Origin: an uncultured Sphingomonas sp.
GTDB lineage: Bacteria > Pseudomonadota > Alphaproteobacteria > Sphingomonadales > Sphingomonadaceae
Length of the DNA: 64,000 bases
Assembly (NCBI RefSeq): GCF_913776855.1
Contig: NZ_CAJYQD010000001.1
Span: 44,736 to 108,735 of the forward strand
Direction of reading: 5' to 3'
How positions within the stretch are numbered: position 1 is the stretch's first letter; each line of letters opens with the position of its first letter. The notes beneath the pieces were generated by a model. That model made no database searches. It saw nothing but the letters and a program-made list of their open reading frames with translations, and was not told where the DNA came from. Positions 20,231 to 28,809 of the stretch are shown here, piece by piece. Both the position numbers and the translations under genes were made by a program.

Positions 20231-21694
20231 ATGCTGGGCTGGTTTCGCAAGAATGCCCCTATCCGGACGAAATTCGTCTTCATGGGGGGCATCTATACGC
20301 TCCTGACGGCGATCCCCGTTGTGGCAACGGTCGCAGCGGTCAACGGCCTGGCGTCGCCATCGCTGTTGATCGGCGTCGCGCTGGCCGCACTCGTGACGAC
20401 CATCGTGCTTACCGCCGTATTCCGCAGCGCGGTCTGCGACCCCTATGTCGATTCGGTGGTCGGCATGGAAGCGATCGCCGCCGGCGACCTGTCGCGCCCG
20501 ATCGACTATGTGGCGTATCAGGACTGCATCGGTCGCATGGCGCGCGCGATGCAGGTGTTCCAGGCCAATGGGCAGGCGGTCAAGGACGCTGCGCAGGGAC
20601 AGCAACAGGTGGTCGGCCGGTTGGGCGAAGGCCTGTCGCGGCTGGCCGCAAGCGACGTCAGCTATCGCATCGCCGAAACCTTTCCCGCCGATTACGAACG
20701 GCTGCGCACCGATTTCAACGCGGCGATGGACGCGGTGTCGGAAGTGCTGGCGGCGGTGCGCGAAGCAACCAGCGGCATCAACGACGGTGCCAACGACATT
20801 CGTGAGGCATCCGACGATTTGTCGCAGCGGACCGAGCAGCAGGCCGCAAGCCTGGAAGAGACGGCCGCCGCGATGGACCAGATCACCGGAACCGTGCGCG
20901 AAACGGCGGCCGGGGCGACCCGCGCCCACACCGTGGTCAACGAAACCCGCGACGAGGCCGAACAATCGGGCGACGTCGTGCGCCGCGCCGTCGATGCGAT
21001 GCACGGGATCGAGCGCGCGTCGGGCGAGATTGGCGACATCATCACCGTGATCGACGGCATCGCGTTCCAGACCAACCTGCTGGCGCTGAACGCCGGGGTC
21101 GAGGCCGCCCGTGCGGGTGATGCCGGCAAGGGCTTTGCCGTCGTCGCATCCGAAGTACGCGCGCTGGCGCAGCGGTCGGCCGATGCGGCCAAGGACGTGA
21201 AGACCAAGATCAACGCGTCGTCCGAACAGGTCGCGACCGGCGTCGAGCTGGTCAGCGAAACCGGCAAGGCGCTGCAACGGATCATCGGCCGCATTGGAGA
21301 GATCAGCGCGCTGGTCGGCACCATCGCGACCTCCGCCGATCAGCAGGCGACCGGGCTGCAACAGGTCAATACCGCCGTCAACGAGATGGACGGCGTGACG
21401 CAACAGAATGCCGCGATGGTCGAACAGGCCACCGCCGCTGCCCGCCGCCTGGCCGAAGAGGCACAGGAACTGACGCGGCAGGTGAACCGCTTCACGCTGG
21501 CCGCCGGGGCATCCGCCGGTGGCGGCATGTCGTCGTTCCGGGGCGCGCCGACGCAGAGCGCAGTCCATCGGCTGCAGGCCCGCGTGGCACAGGTCAGCCG
21601 CGACATGGCGCCGCCGCCGCGTCGAAAGGTCGCCGCCAGCGGCGGTCCTGCCGTCGCCGCTATGGTCGATGACGACGACTGGACCGAATTCTGA
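20231..21694 (+). CDS. Methyl-accepting chemotaxis protein
   Basis: Two N-terminal TMs, HAMP, signalling tip (AFQTNLLALNAGVEAARAGDAGKGFAVVASEVRALAQRS), C-terminal DWTEF pentapeptide. Confidence 0.95.
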   Translation: MLGWFRKNAPIRTKFVFMGGIYTLLTAIPVVATVAAVNGLASPSLLIGVALAALVTTIVLTAVFRSAVCDPYVDSVVGMEAIAAGDLSRPIDYVAYQDCIGRMARAMQVFQANGQAVKDAAQGQQQVVGRLGEGLSRLAASDVSYRIAETFPADYERLRTDFNAAMDAVSEVLAAVREATSGINDGANDIREASDDLSQRTEQQAASLEETAAAMDQITGTVRETAAGATRAHTVVNETRDEAEQSGDVVRRAVDAMHGIERASGEIGDIITVIDGIAFQTNLLALNAGVEAARAGDAGKGFAVVASEVRALAQRSADAAKDVKTKINASSEQVATGVELVSETGKALQRIIGRIGEISALVGTIATSADQQATGLQQVNTAVNEMDGVTQQNAAMVEQATAAARRLAEEAQELTRQVNRFTLAAGASAGGGMSSFRGAPTQSAVHRLQARVAQVSRDMAPPPRRKVAASGGPAVAAMVDDDDWTEF

Positions 21695-21735: not shown

Positions 21736-21999
21736 ATGACCATCGCCCTTCCTGCCATATTAGACACTCCCGCCGCCGCCCCGCTGCGCCAGACGCTGCG
21801 CGATGCGATCGGCACCGGCCGCCCGATCCAGCTCGACGCGTCGGGGGTGGAGCGGATCGGCCAGGCGTGCCTGCAGGTGCTGGCCGCCGCTGAAGTCGCG
21901 GCGGAAGAGGCCGGTCAGCCATTCCACATCACCGGCGCAAGCCCTGTGTTCGCTGATATGGCGACGCTGGCGGCGCTCGACACCCTCCTCGCCGCCTGA
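21736..21999 (+). CDS. STAS domain-containing protein
   Basis: About 87-aa protein with STAS pattern (IQLDASGVERIGQACLQVLAAA), between mcp and cheA. Confidence 0.85.
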   Translation: MTIALPAILDTPAAAPLRQTLRDAIGTGRPIQLDASGVERIGQACLQVLAAAEVAAEEAGQPFHITGASPVFADMATLAALDTLLAA

Positions 22000-22014: not shown

Positions 22015-24204
22015 ATGGACCTCGACGCAATCCAGCAGATCTTCTTCCAGGAATGTGAGGAAGGCCTTGCCGCGATGGAGGGCAACTTCACGTTGCTGCG
22101 CGACGGCGATCGCGATTCGGAAACGATCAACGCCGTGTTCCGCTGCGTCCATTCGATCAAGGGCGGGGCAGGGGCGTTCGGGCACGAGCGCCTGCAGGCC
22201 TATACCCATCAATATGAAACGCTGCTCGACCTGATCCGCAACGGTACGCTGGAGCTGACGCCCGCGCTGCTCGACGTGGTGGTGGGGGCGTTCGACGTGC
22301 TGTCCGACCATGTCGCGGCCGCGCGTGACCATGATACGCCGCCGTCCGATGCGGCGATGCTGGAACGGCTGGCCGCGGCGGCCGGGGGCGACACCGCTCC
22401 GAAGGCCGCCGCAACCCCCGCTCCCGACATCGCTCCGGCGGCCGCGGTGTCAGATGACTTCGACGACCTGATGTCGATGCTGGGCGATGTCGCGCAGTCG
22501 GAGGACGGCGCGGACGCGGCCAATGGCTGGCGCCTGCGCTACACGCCGGGGGCCAAGGCGTTCGAACATGGAGCCGAACCGCTGCTGCTGCTGCGCGAGC
22601 TGACGATGCTGGGGGGCAAGGTCACGCTTTGCGACCGGGCCGCGCTGCCCCCGCTCGACATGATGGAACCCGAGTGCGGCTATCTCGCATGGGACGTGGC
22701 ATTGCCGGCCAGCGTAGCCGAGGACGATATCCGCGCGGTGTTCGAATTCGGCGATCCGACCGCGATCACGTTGATGCAGGGCGATGCCGCGCCGGCCATG
22801 GCTGAAGATAGCGTCGATGCGCTGTTCGACCTGTTGGATTCGTTCGACGTGGCTCCTGCGCCGGTCGCGGTCGTCGAGGAACCGGCTGTCGTGGCATCGC
22901 CGCCTCCGCCGCCGCCGCCTGCGCCGGCACTGGTCGTTGCGCCGGCGCCCACACCCGCTCCGGTTGCGGCGGAGCCGGCCGCGCCGCGTGCCGTGGCGCC
23001 GAGCGCACCGGCGGCACCGCCCGCACAGACCATCCGCGTCGACCTCGACAAGCTCGACCGGCTGGTCAACCTGGTCGGCGAGCTGGTGATTACCCAGGCG
23101 ATGCTCGCGCAGCGGCTGGCCGAGAACCAGATGGGCGGCATTTCCGAACTCAGCGACCTCGAGCATCTGACGCGTGAGCTGCAGGAATCGACGATGGCGA
23201 TCCGCGCGCAGCCGATGAAGACCGTGTTCAGCCGCGTGCCGCGCATCGTCCGCGAACTGGAGGGCGAAACCGGCAAGCGGGTCCGCCTCGAGGTGGATGG
23301 CGAGATGACCGAGGTCGACAAGACCGTGGTCGAGCGTATTGGCGAGCCGCTGACCCATCTGATCCGCAACGCGGTCGACCACGGCCTCGAAATGCCCGAC
23401 GTTCGCGTCGCCGCGGGTAAGCCGGCCGAGGGCGTCGTTCGCCTGGCGGCGGCGCATCAGTCGGGGCGGATCGTCATCACCGTGTCCGACGATGGACAGG
23501 GCATCAACCGCGCGCGCGTGAAGGCGAAGGCGATCGAGAAGGGCATCATCATGCCCGATGCCGTGTTGAGCGATGAGGAGATCGACAATTTGATCTTCGC
23601 GCCCGGTTTTTCGACCGCGGCGGCGATCACCAACGTCTCCGGCCGGGGCGTCGGCATGGACGTGGTGCGCAAGAACATCCAGGCGCTGGGCGGTCGCATC
23701 GGCATCCAGTCGCGCGAGGGCTTCGGGTCCAGCTTTTCGCTCAGCCTGCCGCTGACGCTGGCGGTGCTGGACGGCATGATCGTGACCGTTGGCCAGCAGA
23801 CCTTCGTCATTCCGCTCGGCCATATCGTCGAAAGCCTGCGCCCTGACGACGACACGCTCAGCCGGCTGGGTCCGGACGGGACGCTGCTCGACGTGCGCGG
23901 GTCGTACGTGCCGGTGCTGCGCATCGCCGACTATCTGGGCATCGAGGGGGCGGAGCGGAACCCGACCAATGCCGTGCTGATCGTGGTCGAGGGCGACCAT
24001 GGCCAGGCCGCGCTGCTGGTCGACACGATCCAGGATCAGCGGCAGGTCGTGGTCAAGAGCCTCGAGGCGAATTACCAGGCGATCGACGGCGTAGCCGGGG
24101 CGACGATCCTTGGCGACGGGCGCGTCGCGCTGATCGCCGATGTCGATGCGCTGACCACCCGCGGCCGCTTCGCCAACCGTCCGTCGGCGGCGCTGGCGGC
24201 ATGA
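22015..24204 (+). CDS. cheA: Chemotaxis histidine kinase CheA
   Basis: P1 VHSIKGGAGAFG, Pro/Ala-rich linker, LVNLVGELVI dimerisation, HLIRNAVDHGLE, GRGVGMDVV, C-terminal CheW-like domain. Confidence 0.97.
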   Translation: MDLDAIQQIFFQECEEGLAAMEGNFTLLRDGDRDSETINAVFRCVHSIKGGAGAFGHERLQAYTHQYETLLDLIRNGTLELTPALLDVVVGAFDVLSDHVAAARDHDTPPSDAAMLERLAAAAGGDTAPKAAATPAPDIAPAAAVSDDFDDLMSMLGDVAQSEDGADAANGWRLRYTPGAKAFEHGAEPLLLLRELTMLGGKVTLCDRAALPPLDMMEPECGYLAWDVALPASVAEDDIRAVFEFGDPTAITLMQGDAAPAMAEDSVDALFDLLDSFDVAPAPVAVVEEPAVVASPPPPPPPAPALVVAPAPTPAPVAAEPAAPRAVAPSAPAAPPAQTIRVDLDKLDRLVNLVGELVITQAMLAQRLAENQMGGISELSDLEHLTRELQESTMAIRAQPMKTVFSRVPRIVRELEGETGKRVRLEVDGEMTEVDKTVVERIGEPLTHLIRNAVDHGLEMPDVRVAAGKPAEGVVRLAAAHQSGRIVITVSDDGQGINRARVKAKAIEKGIIMPDAVLSDEEIDNLIFAPGFSTAAAITNVSGRGVGMDVVRKNIQALGGRIGIQSREGFGSSFSLSLPLTLAVLDGMIVTVGQQTFVIPLGHIVESLRPDDDTLSRLGPDGTLLDVRGSYVPVLRIADYLGIEGAERNPTNAVLIVVEGDHGQAALLVDTIQDQRQVVVKSLEANYQAIDGVAGATILGDGRVALIADVDALTTRGRFANRPSAALAA

Positions 24205-25064
24205 GCCGGGCCGCCGCCCTCACCGACAATCGCGCGCGCGAATTCGCGTTCGATGCCGGCGACCACCGCGCCATCGCGGCGCTGGTGTATGACGAGGTCG
24301 GAATCCTGCTGCCCGATGGCAAGGCGCAATTGGTCTATGGCCGGATCGCCCCGCGCGTGCGGGCGTGCGGGCTGACCAGCTTTGCCGACTATGTGACCCG
24401 GATCGGCCGCGATGCCGAGGAACGCGGCCGCGCGATCGATGCGCTGACGACGAACCACACCAGCTTCTTTCGCGAAAACCATCATTTCGAGGATTTCGTG
24501 GAGCGGATCTGGCCGCCGCTGGCCGACCGGCTGGCAAAGGGGGGCCGGGTGCGGCTGTGGTCGGCGGCGTGTTCGAGCGGGGAAGAACCCTATTCGTGGC
24601 TGATGGCGATGTTCGGCACCGACCGCGCCGCCGCCCAACGACTTTTGAAGACCGACCTGCGGATGCTGGCGACCGATGTGTCGCCCAGCGTGCTGAACAC
24701 CGCGCGCGCCGGCCGGTATTCGAAGGAAACGATGCGGACCGTACCCGCGTCGCTGCGTTCCGTGTGGACCGGGGGGGACGGCGACAGCCTTGTCGTCGAT
24801 CCGGTCCTTCGCGACGCGATCGCGTTCAAGCCGCTAAACCTGCTCGGCGACTGGCCGTTCAAGGGGCGGTTCGACACGATCTTCTGTCGCAATGTGATGA
24901 TCTATTTCGACGAGCCTACCAAAGAGCGCCTGCTGGCGCGGCTCGGCGAGCGGTTGGAGGTTGGGGGGATGCTCTATATTGGTCACTCGGAGCGGCTGAT
25001 CGGCCCGGTGCAGGACAAGTTCCGCTGTATCGGCCGCACCGCCTATCAGAAGATCGCCGCATGA
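24201..25064 (+). CDS. cheR: Chemotaxis protein methyltransferase CheR
   Basis: TNHTSFFRENHHF, LWSAACSSGEEPYS, FDTIFCRNVMIYFD. Confidence 0.96.
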   Translation: MSRAAALTDNRAREFAFDAGDHRAIAALVYDEVGILLPDGKAQLVYGRIAPRVRACGLTSFADYVTRIGRDAEERGRAIDALTTNHTSFFRENHHFEDFVERIWPPLADRLAKGGRVRLWSAACSSGEEPYSWLMAMFGTDRAAAQRLLKTDLRMLATDVSPSVLNTARAGRYSKETMRTVPASLRSVWTGGDGDSLVVDPVLRDAIAFKPLNLLGDWPFKGRFDTIFCRNVMIYFDEPTKERLLARLGERLEVGGMLYIGHSERLIGPVQDKFRCIGRTAYQKIAA

Positions 25065-26095
25065 GCGTCCGGACCCTCATCGTCGATGATTCGATGGCGA
25101 TGCAGGCGATCATCCGCCGCCGGCTACTCGCTGATCCGGGAATCGAAGTCGTCGGTACCGCCGCCAGCGCCGACGAGGCCCGCGCGCAGATCAAGGCGCT
25201 GGACCCCGATGTCGTGACGCTGGACATCGAAATGCCGGGGATGAGCGGCCTGGACTTCCTCGAACGGCTGATGCGCCTGCGCCCGACGCCGGTGGTCATG
25301 CTGTCGACGCTAACCGCACAAGGGGCGGAGGCGAGCCTGACCGCGCTGGAGCGCGGCGCGTTCGACTGTTTCGACAAGACCCGGCTGATGGCCGGGACCG
25401 ACGCGGCCTGCACGTCGGAACTGACCGAACTGGTCCGCGCCGCCGCCACTGCGCGTCCCGCCGCACGCGCGACGCCGGTCCGCGCTGTGCCGGTGCAGGA
25501 ACGGGCAGGCTATACCCCGCGTCCCGGCGCGATGATCGCGATCGGCGCGTCGACCGGCGGGGTCGAGGCGCTGATCGAGCTGTTGTCGAGCTTTCCGGCG
25601 AACTGCCCGCCGACCGTTATCGTCCAGCATATGCCCGCGACCTTCACCCCCAGCTTTGCCGCACGCCTCAACCGCCTGTGCGCGCCAAGTGTCGAGGAAG
25701 CGCGTGCGGGCGCACCGCTGACGGTGGGCAAGGTCTATCTGGCGCCCGGTGGCGAACGGCATATGGAGATCGGCGGATCGGGCGAGCGCCGCCATTGCCG
25801 CCTGGTCGAAGGCGACAAGGTGAACGGCCACCGCCCGTCGGTCGACCGGCTGTTCCATTCGGTCGCGCGCCTTGCAGGGCGCGATGCGACCGCCGCGATC
25901 CTGACCGGCATGGGCTGCGACGGGGCGGAGGGGATGAAGGCGATGCGCGGCTGCGGGTCGATGACCTTCGGCCAGGACAAGGCGACCAGCGTCGTTTACG
26001 GGATGCCCGCCATCGCCCATCAGATCGGCGCGGTCGCCGAACAGCTGCCGCTGCGTCGCATCGCCCAGCGGCTGCTGGCGGAATGTGCTGCATGA
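25061..26095 (+). CDS. cheB: Protein-glutamate methylesterase CheB (catalytic residues present)
   Basis: Receiver domain plus GASTGG, QHMP and TGMGCDGAEGM catalytic motifs. Confidence 0.96.
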   Translation: MSVRTLIVDDSMAMQAIIRRRLLADPGIEVVGTAASADEARAQIKALDPDVVTLDIEMPGMSGLDFLERLMRLRPTPVVMLSTLTAQGAEASLTALERGAFDCFDKTRLMAGTDAACTSELTELVRAAATARPAARATPVRAVPVQERAGYTPRPGAMIAIGASTGGVEALIELLSSFPANCPPTVIVQHMPATFTPSFAARLNRLCAPSVEEARAGAPLTVGKVYLAPGGERHMEIGGSGERRHCRLVEGDKVNGHRPSVDRLFHSVARLAGRDATAAILTGMGCDGAEGMKAMRGCGSMTFGQDKATSVVYGMPAIAHQIGAVAEQLPLRRIAQRLLAECAA

Positions 26096-26640
26096 GCGCC
26101 TTGTCGGCCCGCGACGGTCTGCGCCGGCTGACGGTGGCGCAGGGCGAGATGAAGGTCAGCGACGAACGCGATGTCGTGTTGACGACGGTGCTGGGCAGCT
26201 GCGTCGCGGCGTGCTTCTATGATCCGGTCGCGCACATCGGCGGGATCAACCATTACCTGCTGGCCGATGGCAATGCGTCGGACCCCGCATCGATGCAGCG
26301 TTACGGCGTCTATGCGATGGAAGTGCTGATCAACGCGATGCTGGCGCGCGGCGCCGCGCGGTCGCGAATGCGTGCGCGCATCTTTGGCGGGGCGACGATG
26401 CGCGCGGGTTTCCGTGACATCGGCGGCGCGAACATCGCCTTTGCGCGGCAGTTCCTGCGCGACGAACGCATCGCGCTGGTCGGCGAGGATGTGGGGGGCA
26501 CGCAGGCCCGCCGGGTCGAATTTCGCGCGGCGGTCGGCCTGGCGCGATGCCGGTCGGTCGTCGACACGGCGCCACCGCCGATCGTCGTGCGCACACCGCC
26601 ACCGCCACCCGCCGCCGTCGGCGACGTGGAGTTTTTCTGA
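26092..26640 (+). CDS. cheD: Chemoreceptor glutamine deamidase CheD
   Basis: LGSCVAACFYD and GGINHYLL motifs; Pro-rich tail ending GDVEFF. Confidence 0.94.
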   Translation: MSALSARDGLRRLTVAQGEMKVSDERDVVLTTVLGSCVAACFYDPVAHIGGINHYLLADGNASDPASMQRYGVYAMEVLINAMLARGAARSRMRARIFGGATMRAGFRDIGGANIAFARQFLRDERIALVGEDVGGTQARRVEFRAAVGLARCRSVVDTAPPPIVVRTPPPPPAAVGDVEFF

Positions 26641-27035
26641 TGACCGAATTTGCACCGAGGGAGCCTCTAGCCGTGGCCAAGACGATCATGACCGTGGACG
26701 ATTCGCCCAGTATGCGGATGCTGCTGCGGGTCGCGCTGACCGATCTGGGATATAGCGTCGTGGAGGCCGAGGACGGCGTTCACGCACTGGAGAAGCTGGA
26801 CGGGTTTCAGCCCGACCTGCTGATCACCGACATCAACATGCCGCGCATGGACGGGTTCGGCCTGATCGCCGAGGTCCGCGGGCAGGGGCGTCGCAGCCTG
26901 CCGATCCTCGTCCTAACTACCGAGAGTTCCGACGAAAAAAAGCAGCGCGCACGCGATGCCGGTGCTACCGGCTGGATCGTCAAGCCGTTCCACCCCGAAA
27001 AGCTGGCCGCCGCGATCCGGCGCGTCCTGCACTGA
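26640..27035 (+). CDS. CheY-like single-domain response regulator
   Basis: TIMTVDDSPSMR, DLLITDINMPRMDG, LTTESS, WIVKPF. Confidence 0.95.
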   Translation: MTEFAPREPLAVAKTIMTVDDSPSMRMLLRVALTDLGYSVVEAEDGVHALEKLDGFQPDLLITDINMPRMDGFGLIAEVRGQGRRSLPILVLTTESSDEKKQRARDAGATGWIVKPFHPEKLAAAIRRVLH

Positions 27036-27061: not shown

Positions 27062-27499
27062 ATGTCCCGCCAACTCATCACCTTTCAGCTGGGCGACCAG
27101 ATCCTCGGCGTCGACATCATGGCGATCCGCGAGATTCGTGCCTGGTCGCCGGCCACCCCGCTGCCCAACGTGCCGCCCTATGTGCGCGGTGTCGTGAACC
27201 TGCGCGGTGTCGTGCTGCCGGTGTTCGACCTGCGCCACCGGCTGAACTGGGGCGTGACCGACCCGTCGGCGCGCCATGTCATCATCGTCGTGCGGATCGG
27301 CGAACAGCTGCAGGGGATCATCGTCGATGCGGTGAACGACATCGTGTCGATCCATCCCGACGCCATGCAGCCGGTGCCCGACATCGGCGACGCCGAAGCG
27401 TCGCGATTCCTGGAAGGGTTGGCGACCATCGACAACCGCATGATCCTGGTGCTGGCGCTCGACCGACTGGTCGACCAGCCTGTCGCCGAAGCCGCTTGA
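27062..27499 (+). CDS. cheW: Chemotaxis coupling protein CheW
   Basis: TFQLGDQILGVDIMAIREI, PYVRGVVNLRGVVLPVFDLR. Confidence 0.96.
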   Translation: MSRQLITFQLGDQILGVDIMAIREIRAWSPATPLPNVPPYVRGVVNLRGVVLPVFDLRHRLNWGVTDPSARHVIIVVRIGEQLQGIIVDAVNDIVSIHPDAMQPVPDIGDAEASRFLEGLATIDNRMILVLALDRLVDQPVAEAA

Positions 27500-27532: not shown

Positions 27533-28534
27533 ATGCCTGCTAGCACCAAGGTCCTCGTCGTCGACGACTCCCTGACCATGCGGGCGCTCATATCGGGCGC
27601 GCTCGAACGGATTCCGGGTGTCGAGGTCGTCGGACTGGCCGATGGCGCCGAGGAAGCGCGCTCGATGGTGGCGTCGCTCAAGCCGCATGTCATGACGCTC
27701 GACGTCGAGATGCCGGGCATGAGCGGCATCGAATATCTGGCCGAGATCATGGAATCGAAGCCGATGCCGGTCATCATGTTCTCGACCCGCACGACCGATG
27801 GCGCGGGCGAGACGATCGAGGCGCTGCGCCTGGGGGCGATCGACTGCCTGCCCAAGCCGCGCGTGGCGGCCCCGGCCGAACTGAACGCGATCATCGCCAA
27901 GCTCGGCAAGCGCATCAAGTCGGCGCGCAACGCGCCGGTGAAGGTTCCCAAGGTCGCCAGCGCCGCGCGGCCGATCGACTGGAACGGCCGCCTGCTGGTG
28001 GTCGGCGGCGATGCGTCCAGCACCGCATCGATGTTCCACCTGTTCGGCCAGTTCCCGCCGAACTGCCCGCCGACGATCGTCGTCCAGCATCTGGGACCGG
28101 GCCTGGTCGAGGGCATGGTGGAAAAGCTGGGATCGCAGGTCGCGCCAAAGGTCGTGGTGGCGCAGGACGGCATGGCGATCGAACAGGGCACGATCTATTT
28201 CGCGCCGCAGGGTGACCATCACCTCGTTGTCGATGCTTGGCCCTCAGGCAAGCTGCGGTTGCTGGCGCGCGATCCGGTGGCGGGTGAGCGGCCGTCGATC
28301 TCGCTGCTGTTCGCCGCAGCCGCCAAGGCGGCCGGATCGAACGCGGCGGGCGTGCTGTTCCTCGATGGCAGCGAAGATGGCGGCGGCGGGTTGAAGGCGA
28401 TGCTGGGCGCGGGCGGCTATGCCTTTGCCCCGGCGGAGACCGGCGGCGGGCATACGCTGTCGCGCGGCATGGTGACGCAGCCGGTGCCGGCCGATGGTCT
28501 CGCCGCCGGCGTGCTGAAGCTGTGTTCGAAATGA
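27533..28534 (+). CDS. Second CheB-like protein; esterase domain lacks the GxSxG serine (putative pseudo-methylesterase)
   Basis: Intact receiver domain; GASTGG of the neighbouring CheB aligns without gaps to GGDASS here; QH and acidic-loop D retained. Confidence 0.85.
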   Translation: MPASTKVLVVDDSLTMRALISGALERIPGVEVVGLADGAEEARSMVASLKPHVMTLDVEMPGMSGIEYLAEIMESKPMPVIMFSTRTTDGAGETIEALRLGAIDCLPKPRVAAPAELNAIIAKLGKRIKSARNAPVKVPKVASAARPIDWNGRLLVVGGDASSTASMFHLFGQFPPNCPPTIVVQHLGPGLVEGMVEKLGSQVAPKVVVAQDGMAIEQGTIYFAPQGDHHLVVDAWPSGKLRLLARDPVAGERPSISLLFAAAAKAAGSNAAGVLFLDGSEDGGGGLKAMLGAGGYAFAPAETGGGHTLSRGMVTQPVPADGLAAGVLKLCSK

Positions 28535-28809
28535 GCGGGGTCGCGTTCCCCGCCGCCTCGCCCGCGCTGGGCGAGGCGCTGGCCGGCGAGCTGGAGCGGG
28601 CTTCGCGCCTGCTCGGCGAGCTGGCGTTCGAGCTGGGCAGCGACGAAACGACGCTGCGCCGGCACCTGACCGGCCTGCAGTCGATCGACCATGTGACGCA
28701 GATCTTGCTGAACATCGCGACCGTGCTGCGCGCGGGCGAGGGAACGGATCAGCTGGCCGGGGTTACGCTGGAGGATGTCGCGGGACGATTGCGCGCGAGC
28801 CTGAATTGA
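28531..28809 (+). CDS. Hypothetical 92-aa helical protein, candidate CheZ-like phosphatase
   Basis: ATGA-coupled to cheB2; contains TGLQSIDHVTQILLNIATVL (LQxxDxxxQ). Confidence 0.7.
   Translation: MSGVAFPAASPALGEALAGELERASRLLGELAFELGSDETTLRRHLTGLQSIDHVTQILLNIATVLRAGEGTDQLAGVTLEDVAGRLRASLN

Follow-up and report, generated by a model that had tools for sequence, protein, structure and literature searches.

In textbook accounts of bacterial chemotaxis, CheB is the feedback enzyme. The window analysed here, a 64,000-nucleotide stretch from an uncultured Sphingomonas sp., carries two copies of its gene in one che operon, the second of which (cheB2) is the subject of this report. Among described systems, the CheB proteins of Salmonella (PDB 1a2o) and Pectobacterium atrosepticum (6ymz) share with CheB2 a receiver joined to a CheB fold over their full length (30-34% identity), the phospho-acceptor set and a che operon context. 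Unlike them, CheB2 lacks the catalytic triad, Thr165 and Met283, has a shortened C-terminal SVVYGMP stretch and falls below the NCBIfam cut-offs for CheB.

Two further systems bear on the comparison. Phosphate sinks are established in alphaproteobacterial chemotaxis, where CheY1 of S. meliloti is a phosphate-sink response regulator, and such a sink has reportedly been modelled for R. sphaeroides. CheB2 may likewise provide an additional receiver that competes for phosphate from CheA, but it differs from these regulators by its conserved CheB-fold output domain. The other system is the phosphatase CheZ, which uses a DxxxQ motif and of which alphaproteobacterial examples with DxxxQ are known (PMC7750401). 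The small frame following cheB2, orf95, resembles CheZ in its helical make-up, its invariant DxxxQ and its che operon location; it differs in having only 92 aa and in displaying neither a CheZ sequence match nor a significant structural match.

The che operon

The genes preceding cheB2 in the window are as follows.

20231-21694, + strand: MCP with a C-terminal DWTEF tether at 21677-21691 (Pfam, sequence)
21736-21999, + strand: STAS-domain protein (Pfam)
22015-24204, + strand: cheA
24201-25064, + strand: cheR
25061-26095, + strand: cheB1, CheB with intact Ser-His-Asp (Pfam, alignment)
26092-26640, + strand: cheD (Pfam)
26640-27035, + strand: cheY (Pfam)
27062-27499, + strand: cheW (Pfam)

The window has the order MCP-STAS-cheA-cheR-cheB1-cheD-cheY-cheW-cheB2-orf95, which nearly all Sphingomonas loci share. 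The receptors encoded there carry W(S/T)EF at their C termini. The C terminus of CheD (window 26620-26640) displays a proline-rich stretch followed by GDVEFF, resembling an aromatic C-terminal tether.

Domains and active-site residues of CheB2

27533-28534, + strand: cheB2, predicted pseudo-methylesterase response regulator, 333 aa plus stop (Pfam, alignment, model)
27545-27862, + strand: receiver domain (PF00072, alignment)
27872-27934, + strand: alpha5-linker helix with conserved KLGKRIK(A/S)A (helix 114-131 in the model; conservation)
27992-28525, + strand: catalytic-fold domain without a working triad (partial PF01339 match, model, PDB matches)
28010-28012, + strand: Asp160 (GAT), replacing the nucleophile Ser164 (alignment)
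28088-28090, + strand: His186, equivalent of His190, kept here (alignment)
28376-28378, + strand: Asp282, equivalent of Asp286, kept (alignment)

CheB2 combines a receiver with the CheB catalytic fold. Pfam recognised Response_reg (E 1.8e-20) and CheB_methylest (E 1.3e-23), both above cut-off, the latter as a partial match restricted to profile positions 2-142 of 174. An AlphaFold2 model (mean pLDDT 89.9, pTM 0.87) matched full-length CheB 6ymz and 1a2o over both domains with a TM-score of about 0.8. CheB2 shares its domain order with CheB1 and 36% identity over 302 residues, the triad being intact in CheB1 only. On two NCBIfam CheB models CheB2 scored 225.5 (cut-off 293) and 189.8 (cut-off 342), below both, and CheB1 scored 394.3 and 338.1.

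Residue equivalences were derived from HMMER alignments to 1a2o, 1chd and 6ymz and from a MAFFT alignment with 78 relatives. An earlier note, made from this sequence, had claimed that the nucleophile Ser is replaced by Asp while the His, the acidic-loop Asp and the phosphoacceptor and Lys of the receiver are kept, and all of this held. Asp160 aligned with Ser164 in solved structures and relatives alike, while His186 and Asp282 occupied the positions of His190 and Asp286, so that the Ser-His-Asp of an active methylesterase reads Asp-His-Asp in CheB2. The position of His186 is occupied by Gln in the S. paucimobilis group. CheB2 has further lost Thr165 and the oxyanion-hole Met283 to substitution, and part of the SVVYGMP stretch close to the C terminus is missing. 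The receiver is intact, with Asp11/Asp12 (27563-27568), Asp57 (27701-27703) and Lys108 (27854-27856). The alpha5-linker helix lies at the position of the pentapeptide-binding segment of Salmonella CheB; the residues of this site, which is known to be plastic, could not be paired individually.

The serines of the neighbouring DASST were considered as a substitute nucleophile and rejected: they cannot stand in for the lost residue, because the corresponding loop reads GEAAATQ or GADAANTQ in orthologues, without any Ser.

Loss of the triad across the CheB2 family

Sequences were gathered from one genome-collection scan (78 loci) and from whole-genome searches at family, order, class and genus level. 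CheB-type frames were sorted by two profile models, one from the CheB1 and one from the CheB2 branch, and identical sequences were removed. Among the distinct sequences from Sphingomonadaceae and outgroups, Ser-His-Asp was intact in 127 out of 127 CheB1-type and in none of 104 CheB2-type proteins. This contrast is not circular: the models were built from tree-placed sequences, and the tree placed these independently of the triad, whose columns had been removed. The receiver quartet Asp10/Asp11/Asp56/Lys was present in all 104.

The loss took several forms. DHD was the most frequent state (44 sequences), followed by SQD (14), DQD (12) and EHD (11), then by SRD, SPD and NGD (4 each); GAD, GQD, APD, SGD, GPD, GED, SND, ADD, GDD and a broken EH- were found in one or two sequences each. 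Asp286 is the sole triad residue kept nearly everywhere. The form in which Ser is changed to Asn and His to Gly was displayed by four loci (L134, L136, L139 and L140).

CheB2 formed one clade (SH-aLRT 100; bootstrap/SH-aLRT 100/100 without the triad columns). L127_4726, a wrongly cut CheA/CheR row with a branch length of 10, was present in one tree run, which was used only for the CheB2 clade that the other trees recover as well. Forms with Ser changed to Asp or Glu constituted a single subclade (100/100), found in Sphingomonas and Pacificimonas; the remaining forms had lost the His, sometimes together with a change of Ser to Gly, Ala or Asn. A careful tree nested the Asp/Glu clade among the His-lost forms, and as monophyly of the latter was not rejected (p-AU 0.31), we make no claim about which residue was lost first or about exactly how many losses were independent.

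Purifying selection acts on both domains: in comparisons with eight close relatives, dN/dS (Nei-Gojobori) was 0-0.08 for the receiver and 0.03-0.11 for the catalytic domain, resembling CheB1, which argues that the catalytic domain still has a job. Receiver conservation in CheB2 of the Asp/Glu clade (0.87) exceeded that in CheB1 from the same loci (0.79), as did conservation of the alpha5-linker (0.70 vs 0.55), and catalytic domains were nearly equal (0.76 vs 0.78). In His-lost CheB2 the catalytic domain was more variable (0.62) than in the Asp/Glu clade.

CheB2 thus unites lost catalytic residues, a loss fixed among its orthologues and purifying selection. The pseudo-methylesterase proposed in the earlier note is strongly supported by the triad counts and by differing routes of inactivation within one clade. 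Loss of esterase activity is very likely, given the fixed triad loss, the single clade, the selection and the near-fixed synteny, and CheB2 is almost certainly catalytically dead as judged from its sequence. A chance substitution or sequencing error behind Asp160 is excluded, because about 100 orthologues share the loss of the triad.

Distribution and gene order

CheB2 was confined to Sphingomonadaceae (in the GTDB sense) and to records carrying sphingomonad DNA. At the thresholds used, none was detected outside this family among 289 class-level and 201 order-level genomes, the two top class-level matches being intact CheB1-like proteins. Three loci filed under Bacillus sp. 2B10, Microvirga sp. 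SRT01 and Arthrobacter sp. TPD3018 (L012, L018 and L054) displayed typical Sphingomonas-type che operons; their names or assemblies are probably wrong.

In most genus-level genomes scoring for CheB2, a CheB1-level match lay on the same strand, some 2.5 kb further upstream; where it was missing, contigs were short or split, or a second operon was present. Some Sphingomonas genomes with two che operons (G701, loci L133 and L141; G604, locus L134) carried CheB1 and a degenerate CheB2 in each operon. In Novosphingobium-like genomes cheB2 lies divergently at the other side of the operon (for example L067, L099, L101, L108 and L110). Rhizorhabdus-like genomes (L066, L069 and L086) displayed only a cheY-cheB2-orf95 trio, apart from cheA, cheR and cheB1; the one such genome searched (G125) has its only CheA at another site and gave eight receptor-type matches as well as flagellin genes. 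Some reading frames of L086 matched no Pfam family and are probably not real genes.

Small che clusters, composed of a chemoreceptor followed by a CheA-like protein, CheB2 and orf95, were seen at L093:1085-6090 and L095:5111-8739, without an adjoining CheR or active CheB. The L093 receptor carries a protoglobin domain, and in its CheA-like protein Pfam recognised HATPase and CheW domains only; no HPt domain was recognised in the CheA-like proteins of these clusters.

The associated frame orf95

28531-28809, + strand: orf95, 92 aa, candidate CheZ-like phosphatase (ATGA overlap with cheB2; predicted helical; motif)

QxxDxxxQ (Gln50, Asp53, Gln57) was invariant among 24 orthologues of orf95. The product is predicted to form a helical hairpin, of which helix 46-68 carries the invariant DxxxQ. 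It belongs to no Pfam or NCBIfam family, and a structure search gave no significant match. CheZ (PF04344) matched neither orf95 members nor anything in the genome of this organism (85% complete). The frame is conserved downstream of cheB2 or cheW in the che operons of sphingomonads, and operons of other types carry it behind cheD. Its sequence suggests that orf95 may be a CheZ-like phosphatase acting on CheY-P or CheB2-P. This frame and the family-wide pattern of triad loss go beyond the earlier note.

Possible roles of CheB2

CheB2 appears to be an ancient CheB paralogue of the Sphingomonadaceae che operon, incapable of the Ser-His-Asp mechanism and kept alongside an active-looking cheB1. The preferred mechanism, to which we give an even chance, is that phospho-CheB2 docks on WTEF-tailed receptors and competes there with CheB1 or CheR. 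CheA would most likely phosphorylate the receiver, and phosphorylation, by analogy with CheB, would open the two domains. Phospho-CheB2 could then dock on the receptors served by CheB1, its alpha5/linker helix engaging the W(S/T)EF tether at the receptor C terminus and the face of its catalytic domain contacting the methylation helices without demethylating them. So docked, it would compete with CheB1, perhaps also with CheR, and adaptation would be slowed or reset depending on the activity of the kinase; it would also draw phosphate from CheA.

Competition at the receptor is preferred because activated Salmonella CheB S164A still binds the receptor, about 2.5-fold more weakly (PMC8609364), and because the operon-encoded receptors terminate in W(S/T)EF. 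Modelling in that Salmonella work (PMC8609364) placed the receptor pentapeptide on the extended alpha5 helix, and only in activated CheB. The receptor decoy, CheB1 antagonist or scaffold put forward in the earlier note is accordingly a plausible role on sequence grounds, helped by the conserved receiver, alpha5 helix and catalytic-domain fold and by the published S164A binding. Three observations pull the other way. The higher variability of the catalytic domain in His-lost CheB2 and the lack of a residue-by-residue match at the pentapeptide site count against receptor competition, and the Rhizorhabdus-like trio apart from cheB1 fits poorly with the simplest CheB1-antagonist model, keeping a sink or an adaptor alive.

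The main rival is that CheB2 acts chiefly as a phosphate sink, its receiver taking CheA phosphate from CheY and CheB1 and losing it fast, thereby cutting the signal short in an organism that lacks a recognisable CheZ, while the dead catalytic domain merely tunes the receiver. The intact phospho-acceptor site of every distinct CheB2, the conservation of the receiver above that of CheB1, the failure to find CheZ in this genome and the precedent of other alphaproteobacteria all suit this explanation. A sink, however, needs no catalytic domain, and that of CheB2 has kept its fold under CheB1-like purifying selection; we regard a sink as possible but rather unlikely.

It is more doubtful still that CheB2 serves as a scaffold or adaptor, phospho-CheB2 bringing orf95 to the receptors or to CheY-P and so controlling signal termination. 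The persistence of the isolated cheY-cheB2-orf95 trio, the ATGA overlap of cheB2 and orf95 in the window and the succession cheA-cheB2-orf95 in L093 and L095 speak for such a link, but orf95 also occurs in che operons without adjacent cheB2 (L102, L116, L121, L122, L125 and L128), and the two genes are separated in Novosphingobium-like genomes.

An esterase or deamidase working by other chemistry, with Asp or Glu as base or nucleophile, would accommodate the near-universal Asp286 and the fixation of Asp/Glu in place of Ser within the Sphingomonas clade. We consider it highly improbable: the twelve distinct DQD members possess neither Ser nor His, in sister forms it was the His that was lost, the Ser position is also seen with Gly, Ala or Asn, and no common alternative catalytic set is visible.

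That CheB2 is a decaying, functionless pseudogene, as its lost catalytic residues could suggest, is refuted by a frame that stays open and a synteny that is conserved across about 100 genomes and by dN/dS of about 0-0.11 in both domains. A single broken copy was seen, in Sphingomonas beigongshangi REN5 (L077:8045-9094), where the frame is interrupted near the C-terminal part and two overlapping frames match, perhaps through an assembly error.

Conclusion

No published pseudo-CheB, that is, a paralogue fixed without its triad, was found in the open-access literature searched. A dead CheB acting as a kinase-controlled receptor shield or competitor together with a CheZ-like orf95 would be a module for adaptation and signal termination undescribed in other chemotaxis systems, a tentative proposal that we hold to be less than probable. 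A CheB paralogue fixed in the operon, whose triad was lost in various ways while its switch and fold were kept, implies a second, non-enzymatic role for CheB, and the sphingomonad CheB pair could show adaptation tuned by competition rather than by enzyme turnover.
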